34,126 nucleotides of DNA, taken from Mesotoga sp. BH458_6_3_2_1. Its GTDB lineage: Bacteria; Thermotogota; Thermotogae; Petrotogales; Kosmotogaceae. Positions 1,278 to 33,639 of the stretch are shown piece after piece. The position numbers and the translations under genes were made by a program. Under the pieces are notes generated by a model. That model saw nothing but the letters and a program-made list of their open reading frames with translations. It was not told where the DNA came from and did no database searches. The DNA lies in contig NZ_JFHL01000023.1 of NCBI RefSeq assembly GCF_003664995.1, forward strand, positions 1 through 34,126, read 5' to 3'. Every line of letters begins with the position of its first letter. Position 1 is the first letter of the stretch.

Positions 1278-1482
1278 CCCGCAAAGCGGGCATTGCGTCC
1301 TGGCATGTTCTTCGCCAGCCTTGCGTCCACTGATGCTCCTCAGTGCATTGCGTCCCGGCACGATCTTTGCCGGCATTGCGTCCAATGTTCTATAAGGGCA
1401 TCACTTCCGCCGATGCTTTTCGGCGCATCACTTCCCGACGGAGTCGGCATTGCGTCCAATGTTCTATAAGGGCATCACTTTC
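1278..1482 (-). repeat. Linker-hairpin array 2 (8 units, opposite orientation to array 1)
   Basis: On the plus strand the linker reads GCATTGCGTCC or GCATCACTTCC. Units end at 1300, 1328, 1355, 1383, 1408, 1435, 1457 and 1482. Inverted-repeat spacers are CCCGC-AAA-GCGGG (1278-1290), TGGC-ATGTTCTTC-GCCA (1301-1317), ACTGA-TGCTCC-TCAGT (1329-1344), CGGCA-CGATCTT-TGCCG (1356-1372), GCCGA-TGCTTT-TCGGC (1409-1424) and CGAC-GGA-GTCG (1436-1446). Two spacers (1384-1397 and 1458-1471) are identical copies of AATGTTCTATAAGG and have lost pairing. The last unit ends 15 bases before the stop of the converging DeoR gene, so DeoR-operon transcripts would run into the array. Confidence 0.88.
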
Positions 1483-11462: not shown

Positions 11463-12130
11463 GTGGAAACGGGGTTGGTAGTAGGAAAGAGCAAAGGATC
11501 AGTTGCAAGTTTCAAGTTGTGAGTTGTAAAAAAGGCCGGGGTTGGTGGTTGGAGGTTCGTAAGAGAAAAAGAAACTGGTTGACCGCTGAGCGGTTCTCCT
11601 TTCTCCGAAAAGATCCGCTGGTCGCTTGCTAAGAGACGCTGTACGCTGGAAAGAGCGAAGTAACTGGTTCGCCGTTAGACGAGGGAATCTGTTCTTCGTT
11701 CTTGGTCAAAATCGTGAAGCAAGAGCATTAAGATTCCGACCAGGAGCTTTGTCGGAATGACGGAATCTGGCCTTTAGGAATAACCACTTGCTGTCATCCC
11801 GAACTTGTTTCGGGATCTGGTTTTGATCCTCTCGGCGGGGGACGGAGGACCGTTGACGGACAACGTTGTCTTCACAGCGATAAGCGTCTTCCAGCCAGCA
11901 TTTAGCGGCTCTTTCCCCGCGAAGCGGGCATTGTGACCTGGCGTGGTCTAAACCGTTTCTGATAACCCGCTGCTCCTAACCCGATTTTCATAACCCGTTC
12001 CTAGTAGTGGCTCTTTGCTCGACGAAGTCGGAACTGGCCTTTGCCAGAGGCAGAGACTGGCACCACGAAGTGGTACTGGCGAAGGCGAAGTCTTCACTTA
12101 CGGCGATGATTCTCGCCTTCTAGTAGCGGA
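11463..12130. repeat. Intergenic mosaic repeat block B
   Basis: It carries the same sub-elements as the block at 670-1255: ggttggtagtaggaaagag, 'gttgaccgctgagcggttc', TCCGAC-CAGGAGCTTT-GTCGGA-ATGAC (11735-11761) and GTCAT-CCCGAA-CTTGT-TTCGGG-ATCTGG (11793-11820). It also has an 80-base segment (11939-12018, starting ggcgtggtctaaaccg) that recurs almost unchanged at 25081-25160. From 12020 it has stems joined by ACTGGC linkers: CGAC-GAA-GTCG (12020-12030), a 7-bp stem with an AGA loop (12039-12055) and ACCAC-GAA-GTGGT (12062-12074). No gene is supported between 11460 and 12412. Confidence 0.85.
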
Positions 12131-13489: not shown

Positions 13490-15061
13490 ATGAAGCGAAG
13501 CTTCATATTGATTTCTCTAATGGTACTTCTTGTTGCAGCGATGGGATTTGCTGCGACTCCAAAAGACACTCTTGTAATAGGCGCAAACACCGGCATTTTT
13601 ATTACCATGGATCCGGCCGTTGCCTATGAGGTATTTCCAAACAAAATCGTCGCTGCCATCTATGCTCAATTAGTCAAACTAGAGGCAATTGACGGCGTCA
13701 TCGTTCCAGTACCGGACATTGCCGAGAGCTGGGAGATTTCCGATGATGGACTTACCTACATCTTCAATATCAGGAAGGGAGTCAAATTCTCCAACGGTGA
13801 TGCCCTTACAGCCGAGGATGTTCTCTTCTCTCTGAAGAGACCAGTAGTTCTCGAGTCTGTTTCTGCGTGGTTCTTGGTCGATATATTCGGCATAAACAAG
13901 GACAACGTGGATGAGAAGATAAAGCAGATCGACGATTACACTGTGTCGATAACCTTGAACGCTCCTTATGCAGAGAACATAACACTCGGAATTCTATCCA
14001 ACATGTTCACAGGTATCGTCAACAAAGACGTAGTTCTTGAACACGAAGTCGAGGGAGACCTTGGTGGCGCATGGCTTACAGATCACTCCGCTGGTGCGGG
14101 TCCATACGTTCTCGTTCAGTGGGAAAGAAACAACGTTATCCTTCTTGAAGCCAACCCCAATTATTACGGCGAACAGCCCCCTCTGAAAAGAATAATGATA
14201 AGAGACATTCCAGAGGCATCAAACCAGAGACTTCTTCTCGAAAGAGGAGATATCGATGTGGCATGGGATCTCACGCCGCAGTTGCTGGAAGAAGCTAAGA
14301 GAAATCCCGACATCGTTGAAATCAAGGTTCCAGGACATTCAAACGAATATCTCTCAATGAATGCTACATGGGGACCCCTTGCGAACCCGAAGGTAAGAGA
14401 AGCCGTAAGGTTCTCGATCAATTACGAAGAGATCGTTGAGGACATTATGCTCAATAACGCTCTCCTAGTACAGGGTTTCATAAACAAGGGCTACTTCGGC
14501 TACGTGGAAGAGAACCCATTCTACCAGGATATCGAAAAAGCTAAGGCTCTTCTCGCTGAAGCAGGATACCCTGATGGATTCGAAGTCGAGCTTCTCACTA
14601 GCAATACCGACACGAGAAAGGCTGAAGCCGAGAAGATTCAGGCAGACCTTGCGCTTTCAGGAATTAAGGCCAATATAGTAATAATGCAGTCTTCTCAAAT
14701 GTACGCCAAGTATCGTGCACAGGGTCATCAGATGATCATCGCCGGCTGGGGTAATGACTATCCCGATCCGGACAACCTTGCGATGGCTCATGCCAGCTAC
14801 AGGGCAAATCAGCTAGCATGGAGAAATGCATGGTTCGACGATTACGCAGCGACACTTTGTGAATGGGGTCAGATAGAACCTAACCCATACAAACGAGAGC
14901 AGATTTATAAGGACCTTACGGAATACTGGTTCCACAATGGACCTTTTGCGATGCTTTACCAGACCGTAGAGTTCTGGGGAATTCGCAAAGAAGTCAAGAA
15001 CTTCGATGAAGCCGCTTTCGGCTACGGAATGTTGTTCGACTTCACAAAGGTATCTAAGTAA
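13490..15061 (+). CDS. Dipeptide/oligopeptide ABC transporter substrate-binding protein (family 5)
   Basis: A 523-residue SBP_bac_5 protein, the DppA/OppA family. The start ATG 13490 has GGAGG 7 bases upstream and opens with a clear signal peptide, MKRSFILISLMVLLVAAMG, likely cut near AFAA/TPK in this sequence (GFAA-TPK). There is no lipobox cysteine, so the mature protein is not lipid-anchored. Family segments are PDIAESWEISDDGLTYIFNIRKGVKFSNGDALTAEDV in outline, then LEANPNYYG and WGNDYPDPDN. It leads the transporter genes and is separated from them by a GC-rich hairpin. Peptides or muropeptides are the likely ligands, given the epimerase gene just upstream; family 5 proteins can also bind oligosaccharides. 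Confidence 0.93.
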   Translation: MKRSFILISLMVLLVAAMGFAATPKDTLVIGANTGIFITMDPAVAYEVFPNKIVAAIYAQLVKLEAIDGVIVPVPDIAESWEISDDGLTYIFNIRKGVKFSNGDALTAEDVLFSLKRPVVLESVSAWFLVDIFGINKDNVDEKIKQIDDYTVSITLNAPYAENITLGILSNMFTGIVNKDVVLEHEVEGDLGGAWLTDHSAGAGPYVLVQWERNNVILLEANPNYYGEQPPLKRIMIRDIPEASNQRLLLERGDIDVAWDLTPQLLEEAKRNPDIVEIKVPGHSNEYLSMNATWGPLANPKVREAVRFSINYEEIVEDIMLNNALLVQGFINKGYFGYVEENPFYQDIEKAKALLAEAGYPDGFEVELLTSNTDTRKAEAEKIQADLALSGIKANIVIMQSSQMYAKYRAQGHQMIIAGWGNDYPDPDNLAMAHASYRANQLAWRNAWFDDYAATLCEWGQIEPNPYKREQIYKDLTEYWFHNGPFAMLYQTVEFWGIRKEVKNFDEAAFGYGMLFDFTKVSK

Positions 15062-20052: not shown

Positions 20053-20960
20053 ATCACGGGATGACAGTCTTTTGTTGCTTTGATTGCCTCGCGTGATTCT
20101 GGCAAGCATCTCCATCTATGGCGTGAAGAAGGCTAATAAAGGCCATCTGATCAGAACCAACTCATTTTGTCATCCTGAAGCGCTCCTGTTCAGGATCCGG
20201 ACTTTATAAAGACCGTGGTCGGGGGTAGCGGGTCGGTGGTAGGAAAGAGCGAAGTGAAACCGGTTCGCCGTTGAGCGGTTCCCCGTTCTCCGAAAAGAAC
20301 AGTTGCAAGTTGTGAGTTGCATGTGAGAATAGATTCGATCCAAACGGATGTAGGGGCGTGCGGCTGCACGCCCGCTGTCAACAACGATCAGTCTTCCCAA
20401 GGATGAGATCGTCCTCTTCAATAGTTTAACGAACCGAATTCTGGGCAGAATCATGTCTGAATAACGCAAAGAATGTCATCCCGAACTCTTTTCGGGATCT
20501 GGGCTTACGCAAGTGGTCAGAGGTAGCAGGTTGGGGGTTGGAAGAGCAAAAGATACTGGTTCACCGTTGAATGGTTGTCTGTTCTCCGAATAAACAACCT
20601 GTTCTTCGTTCAAGAGCAAGGATCTGTTCTTCGTTCTTGGTTGAAACCGTGAAGCAATAAAATCGAGATTCCGACCAGGAGCTTTGTCTGAATGACGGAA
20701 TCTAGCCTTTTCGGAATAACGATATGTTGGTATCCCACGGAGCTTGCCCTGATTAGCCTGCCCCAATATAATCCTGTTTGGGGCTCCTGTTTGGTGCCTC
20801 TGTTTAGGGTCATCCCGAACTAGTTTCGGGATCTGGTTTTGCGATCTCGGCAGGGGACGGAGGACTGTTGACGGACAACATGGTTTAATAAGCGTTCAGC
20901 GGGTTCTCAGCTTTTCAGCGCGCAGCGGTTCTTATGCTTGCAACTTGGAACAGACAACTT
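20053..20960. repeat. Intergenic mosaic repeat block C
   Basis: It starts with a 'cacgggatgac' half-hairpin. From 20145 it copies the left part of the block at 670: ctgatcagaac, cattttgtcatcc, then GTCAT-CCTGAA-GCGCTCCTG-TTCAGG-ATCCGG from 20169 and the ggtcggtggtaggaaagag stretch. Further elements are GTCAT-CCCGAA-CTCTT-TTCGGG-ATCTGG (20475), TCCGAC-CAGGAGCTTT-GTCTGA (20670-20691, one mismatch) and GTCAT-CCCGAA-CTAGT-TTCGGG-ATCTGG (20809). The stretch agttgtgagttgcatgtgag with following bases (about 20297-20338) recurs at the window's right end. No gene is supported between 19954 and 21040. Confidence 0.85.
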
Positions 20961-21040
20961 GCAACTGCTCTTCGAAGGACCGGTTCATGATTGAGGGAAA
21001 CGAATGAAGTCTACTGAAACAGCTGAACGGCTGCAGGTTC

Positions 21041-33203: not shown

Positions 33204-33264
33204 CTGGCTTCGATAGGAAGAGCGGCTCTTAATATCACGCTGGACGCTGAGAAGTGCGAAGAAC

Positions 33265-33367
33265 AGAAGTGATGCCGACTTCGTCGGGAAGTGATGCGCC
33301 GAAAGATCACCGGCGGAAGTGATGCCCGGAAAGAGGTCCGGGGAAGTGATGCTGCTTCGGAGGAAGC
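33265..33367 (+). repeat. Linker-hairpin array 3 (4 units of GGAAGTGATGC)
   Basis: Units lie at 33266-33275, 33287-33297, 33315-33325 and 33342-33352, and the last three are identical. Spacers: CGAC-TTC-GTCG (33276-33286), GCCG-AAAGATCAC-CGGC (33298-33314) and CCGGA-AAGAGG-TCCGG (33326-33341). The last unit is followed by GCTTC-GGAG-GAAGC (33354-33367). The orientation matches array 1 and is opposite to array 2. Confidence 0.88.
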
Positions 33368-33639
33368 TCTCTTGAAGTTGGTCTGTTGGCGCAGGCCAGT
33401 CAAAAGGCGAGAATCTCGCCCGAGGAGTTTTGCTGGGGAGCAAGACCAGATCAAAGGGGAGCATTGCCGAACCGCTATTTCACTCTTGCCAGACCTTAGA
33501 GGCGACAACTCCAGACCCGTCTCTTCTGTACGGGATCTGACTTCTCTCATTGACCTTGGTAGTCTCGAATATGGTTTTTCTCGAAGCGAAGCTTCGTCTC
33601 AAACTCAAAGCATCTTCTCGCTCTTCAATTAGCCTTCTC

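Follow-up and report, generated by a model that had tools for sequence, protein, structure and literature searches.

Few bacterial repeats are as common as REP-like elements, and what selection acts on in them is disputed. BIMEs and REPINs are mosaic strings of palindromic units joined by short linkers and dispersed between genes, and the units of a BIME share one palindrome family, whereas the stems of the Mesotoga arrays described here differ. The tagged REPs, CGTC and GTAG, are intergenic, carry an unpaired tag at one end, have heterogeneous stems and occur in many copies (Di Nocera 2013, PMC3733652). CGTC-3 REPs have been reported from M. prima (PMC3733652). In addition, the RepRanger survey lists 1,814 putative REPs for M. 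prima, and its Thermotogota motifs are unlike others (PMC12306157).

In this study, we investigated an array of short hairpins in a 34,126-nt stretch of Mesotoga DNA, hereafter the window, and its relatives in other genomes. The nearest known relatives of the arrays are tagged REPs and BIMEs, with which they agree in copy number and intergenic setting and, in part, in the tag. One linker, CATTGCGTC, ends in CGTC directly before the stem; the linkers CATCACTTC and ACTGG do not contain CGTC. The arrays depart from these relatives in the length and the start of the stem, in the tail, in orientation and in having no single shared palindrome. Stems of tagged REPs are 8-9 bp long (9 bp in CGTC-3 REPs) and start with A-T (PMC3733652), whereas array stems are 4-6 bp long and start with C-G. 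The CCA tail of CGTC REPs is lacking in the arrays. CGTC REPs are mainly head-to-head, with negligible head-to-tail dimers (PMC3733652), and BIME units alternate in orientation (PMC2817692), but the array units all point one way, head-to-tail. Under a broad definition, REPs are short, highly similar intergenic palindromes in many copies with one common motif (PMC12306157); the arrays are short intergenic palindromes in such numbers, but their dozen or so stems share linker and loop only. The first-pass annotation knew of no element built in this way, and none of exactly this design was found in the open-licence literature. Some array hairpins probably fall within RepRanger's M. prima count, and the passages of that survey consulted here hold no description of the linkers, the arrays, the stem exchange or the loop code (PMC12306157). 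The Mesotoga hairpin arrays are apparently an undescribed, unusual relative of REPs.

Layout of the array

The array occupies positions 1278-1481 of the window on the forward strand, where eight 9-nt linkers, CMTTGCGTC or CATCACTTY, lie between hairpins with different stems. The first-pass annotation had described eight 11-nt linkers, spacers of 11-17 nt and six hairpins; all are present as measured, six of the linkers exactly and two with one mismatch. The last C of each linker pairs with the first G of the next one, so that each stem gains one base pair. A better parse is therefore a 9-nt linker followed by a stem whose first base is C and whose last base is G. The features, first in the 11-nt parse and then in the 9-nt parse, are as follows.

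1290, 1345, 1373 and 1447, + strand: 11-nt linker GCATTGCGTCC, exact
1398 and 1425, + strand: 11-nt linker GCATCACTTCC, exact
1318, + strand: linker with one mismatch, GCCTTGCGTCC
1472, + strand: linker with one mismatch, GCATCACTTTC
1278-1290, + strand: first hairpin, CCCGC(AAA)GCGGG, a module nearly confined to the first position
1291-1299, + strand: linker CATTGCGTC
1300-1318, + strand: hairpin CTGGC ATGTTCTTC GCCAG
1319-1327, + strand: linker CCTTGCGTC
1328-1345, + strand: hairpin CACTGA TGCTCC TCAGTG
1346-1354, + strand: linker CATTGCGTC
1355-1373, + strand: hairpin CCGGCA CGATCTT TGCCGG
1374-1382, + strand: linker CATTGCGTC
1383-1398, + strand: spacer CAATGTTCTATAAGGG, with no stem of its own
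1399-1407, + strand: linker CATCACTTC
1408-1425, + strand: hairpin CGCCGA TGCTTT TCGGCG
1426-1434, + strand: linker CATCACTTC
1435-1447, + strand: hairpin CCGAC(GGA)GTCGG, a c(GNA)g triloop
1448-1456, + strand: linker CATTGCGTC
1457-1472, + strand: second copy of spacer CAATGTTCTATAAGGG, identical to 1383-1398
1473-1481, + strand: final linker CATCACTTT, immediately preceding the deoR-like gene's 3' end
1498-2238, - strand: deoR-family regulator gene, with its 3' end next to the array; syntenic anchor
1082-1105, + strand: larger palindrome TCATCCCGAACTTGTTTCGGGATC, also in this intergenic region but a different element
1228-1240, + strand: hairpin CGCAC(GAA)GTGCG of the ACTGG linker class, just upstream of the array
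523-625 (approximate), - strand: second array of the same family
33256-33372 (approximate), - strand: third array of the same family

Units come in two main lengths. Those of about 27 nt have a stem of 5-6 bp and a loop of TGNTCY or a similar sequence, and those of about 22 nt have a stem of 4-5 bp and a loop of 3-4 nt. The two spacers without a stem of their own can fold as well, since their CAATG is able to pair with CATTG of the preceding linker. The observed linker counts were never reached in dinucleotide shuffles of the window, and hairpin arrays are not confined to 1278-1481, as the two further ones illustrate. As the first-pass annotation had held, the array is not CRISPR-like: its spacers are hairpins of 11-19 nt that recur across arrays.

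The palindrome at 1082-1105, distinct from the array hairpins, probably corresponds to the CGTC-3 REP described in M. prima. Further copies of this CGTC-type palindrome lie at 11794-11817, 20476-20499 and 20810-20833 of the window, and degenerate 7-nt tandem repeats occur between genes at 824-893, 11501-11519 and 20937-20966.

A dispersed family in Mesotoga

Genome-wide, GCATCACTTCC has 133 exact copies against 2 for the reversed control and GCATTGCGTCC has 37 against none, numbers that exceed chance. A covariance model (R1), built from 65 units and run on Mesotoga genomes in line with a proposal of the first-pass annotation, revealed a dispersed family in seven of them. It found 119, 99 and 118 units in three species (genomes G000, G001 and G004), 37, 31, 13 and 8 in four other congeners, none in the three congeners G003, G007 and G008, and 2 units in one genome of another genus. 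Outside the Kosmotogaceae, a search of the genome collection with family-specific probes returned only two contigs. Phages, plasmids and IMG/VR gave no match to these probes, and a search of Rfam was likewise without a match. The contigs L183 (a Bacteroidales MAG) and L185 (an Acidobacteriota MAG) carry several Mesotoga-type intergenic repeats and, judged by eye, look mis-binned. In G001, the array positions of C1:1822259-1846501 recur in 1898562-1922804 at a constant offset of about 76.3 kb, which suggests a duplication of at least 24 kb.

A second class of arrays is built on an unrelated linker, ACTGG. Its spacers form hairpins in 117 of 188 cases, compared with 5% after shuffling, and use the same loop code as the main class. 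Where an ACTGG array has a main-class neighbor within 300 bases, the two share a strand in 64 cases and lie opposite each other in 5.

Pairing is kept while a limited set of stems recurs

In the alignment of 65 units, 95.1% of the cells are paired, and both sides have changed in all six pairs. The first-pass annotation had let its reading stand or fall with stem covariation, which is present and strong: the score reaches 0.567, compared with 0.133 for shuffled alignments and at most 0.111 for slid structures, controls that leave the kinship between units in place. Its statement that stems change freely does not hold: stems vary in many orders across arrays but are drawn from about a dozen classes that recur across arrays and species. 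Because of these recurring classes, independent stem changes are far fewer than the cell counts; they may number only about ten, most units being paralogues of common ancestry. The constraint within classes is a stronger sign of structure than the covariation score. Stem arms deviate from the sequence of their class at 0-2.3% of sites. In the triloop of the 13-nt class, the middle base differs at 49% while the G and A of the loop differ at 0-2%; in the small 11-nt class, the middle base differs at 60% and the G is changed in 1 of 10.

Where arrays lie in near-identical tracts of G000 and G001, they show no more conservation than the adjoining sequence, and among the few stem changes one disrupts pairing. 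With one non-equivalent alignment left out, the near-identical arrays of these genomes all sit in tracts that are near-identical throughout, so that the comparison speaks neither for nor against extra conservation of the arrays. Long tracts of this kind lie inside regions of about 95% identity (L062 and L090; L170 and L091), which suggests recent exchange between the two species.

A loop code shared with stable DNA hairpins

Loops adjoining linkers follow a narrow code. Of the 130 triloops, 120 read c(GNA)g; the tetraloops read c(GNNA)g in 35 of 40 cases, mostly GNYA and not GNRA. Triloop hairpins of at least 5 bp carry the code on one strand in 87% of cases in arrays, 22-31% in other intergenic regions and 4-6% in genes. 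The common 27-nt units instead have 6-nt loops of the TGNTCY type, not GNA. Loops like c(GNA)g are stable in RNA as well. In DNA, d(GNA) triloops with a C-G closing pair are known to be stable (PMC5815330), and in the promoter hairpins of phage N4, supercoil-driven extrusion needs a C-G closing pair together with the G and A of the loop (PMC4496689). The array hairpins are likewise small, with a C-G closing pair and G and A at the loop ends. This likeness to the promoters of the N4 vRNAP is limited to the loop code, and we claim neither a promoter role nor an N4-like polymerase for the arrays. Since similar loops are also stable in RNA, the loop code favors DNA without proving it.

The arrays might instead act as RNA, as transcribed strings of hairpins with a part in mRNA-end stability, transcription attenuation or protein binding. 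The covarying stems and stable loops would fit this equally, and single strands fold better than shuffled ones in both the RNA and the DNA alphabet, if modestly (z -1.8 to -3.3). However, array strand shows no bias to gene direction on either side, the tetraloops are mainly of the GNYA rather than the GNRA type, and Rfam gave no match. We consider a role as RNA unlikely.

Genomic context and turnover

The arrays are intergenic and occur in the four gene configurations with nearly equal frequency (13, 13, 11 and 10; ORFs called in this analysis, on stretches chosen mostly for their arrays). In G000, 33 of 41 arrays have the 3' end closer to a gene than the 5' end (p ~1e-4); the corresponding 20 of 32 in G001 is not significant. 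The GC skew of G001 is too weak and irregular to assign replichores. Small genes that by eye resemble the toxin-antitoxin type lie near a dense array region (L053:10819-11424 and 14050-14600).

Array content turns over between species, as a comparison of unit gain and loss suggested by the first-pass annotation brought out at two orthologous sites. At the deoR site, some gene-proximal units are common to G000 and G001 and the rest differ, and G002 and G005 have no array. At the L179 site, G000, G005 and G004 have different arrays whose ends nearly coincide, ahead of a promoter-like sequence; G007 carries another repeat there. None of the orthologous sites compared offered a clean empty site with both flanks aligned. 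Some array strings differ by exactly one unit, and G004 has a duplicated multi-unit block (L103). Such exact one-unit differences, together with the constant linker, could also be left by an integron-like cassette array, in which a site-specific recombinase inserts and excises hairpin units at the linkers. Because the linkers are direct repeats, however, the same pattern is expected from slippage or ordinary recombination, and no such enzyme was identified; we rate a cassette array as very improbable. For the mosaic turnover, ordinary recombination between linkers suffices, and a dedicated enzyme, of which none was found, is unnecessary.

The arrays could also be decaying pieces of one longer repeat with incidental hairpins, an outcome that the first-pass annotation had named as fatal to its reading. 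Part of this expectation is borne out: certain unit phrases recur (HI, HJ, AB, CD), the intergenic repeats have a larger order, and some copies are broken. On the other hand, the 86 arrays resolve into 67 distinct unit strings, drawn from about 40 stretches per genome that were picked largely for holding arrays. Moreover, these many unit orders, the constraint and covariation in stem and loop, and the repetition of the same design with the unrelated linker ACTGG speak against decay, which we find quite improbable.

Origin of the arrays

Alternatively, the arrays could be REPs mobilized by resident Y1 (RAYT) transposases, with the linker as recognition tag. REPs likewise consist of a hairpin with a short unpaired tag, and NF047646 has two matches in the genome, both RAYT-like Y1 genes and both below its cut-off. 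Yet the arrays neither flank nor co-occur with a Y1 gene in the way of RAYT-mobilized REPs. G001 (99% complete, 2 contigs) and G002 both contain units, about 99 of them in G001, and neither gives a Y1 match, while G008 has two Y1 genes and zero units. One RAYT gene (L052) has no array in its flanks, and another (L051) lies between inverted repeats of its own, of the GGGGACTGAC type. An enzyme may have acted in the past and been lost after the arrays had spread, but mobilization by resident transposases has little probability in our judgment. The L051 gene (1039-1902, - strand) is bounded by the inverted repeats AAAATGGGGACTGAC...GTCTGTACCC, and its flanks appear in L053 near 12279 and 13202. 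Palindromes similar to these repeats recur in other intergenic regions.

On balance, we think it somewhat probable that the arrays are Mesotoga-specific, interspersed mosaic repeats: REP/BIME-like, head-to-tail strings of stable DNA mini-hairpins with constant tags, reshuffled by recombination and not driven by the resident Y1 enzymes. Each unit would draw its stem from a set of about a dozen, and a constant tag of single-stranded DNA would join it to the next: CMTTGCGTC or CMTCACTTC, with ACTGG in the second class. The conserved entity would be the hairpin on the linker strand, formed in single-stranded or supercoiled DNA; this reading builds on the c(GNA)g loops, the code known for extrusion. 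Recombination or slippage, acting between identical linkers and also between intergenic regions that are paralogous, may multiply and exchange the units, and the family may have spread as a non-coding repeat without resident Y1 transposases. A bolder proposal, which we regard as rather unlikely, is a distinct class of bacterial repeat in which linker and hairpin shape are heritable and the stems interchangeable, built and rewritten by a process that acts on single-stranded DNA and recognizes stable c(GNA)g hairpins.

With stems swapped and shape, loop code and linker kept, the Mesotoga arrays amount to a natural mutational scan in which shape can be told apart from sequence, and they do so in a genus that can lack RAYT, the usual suspect. 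They also provide a natural test of whether c(GNA)g mini-hairpins extrude from chromosomal DNA.
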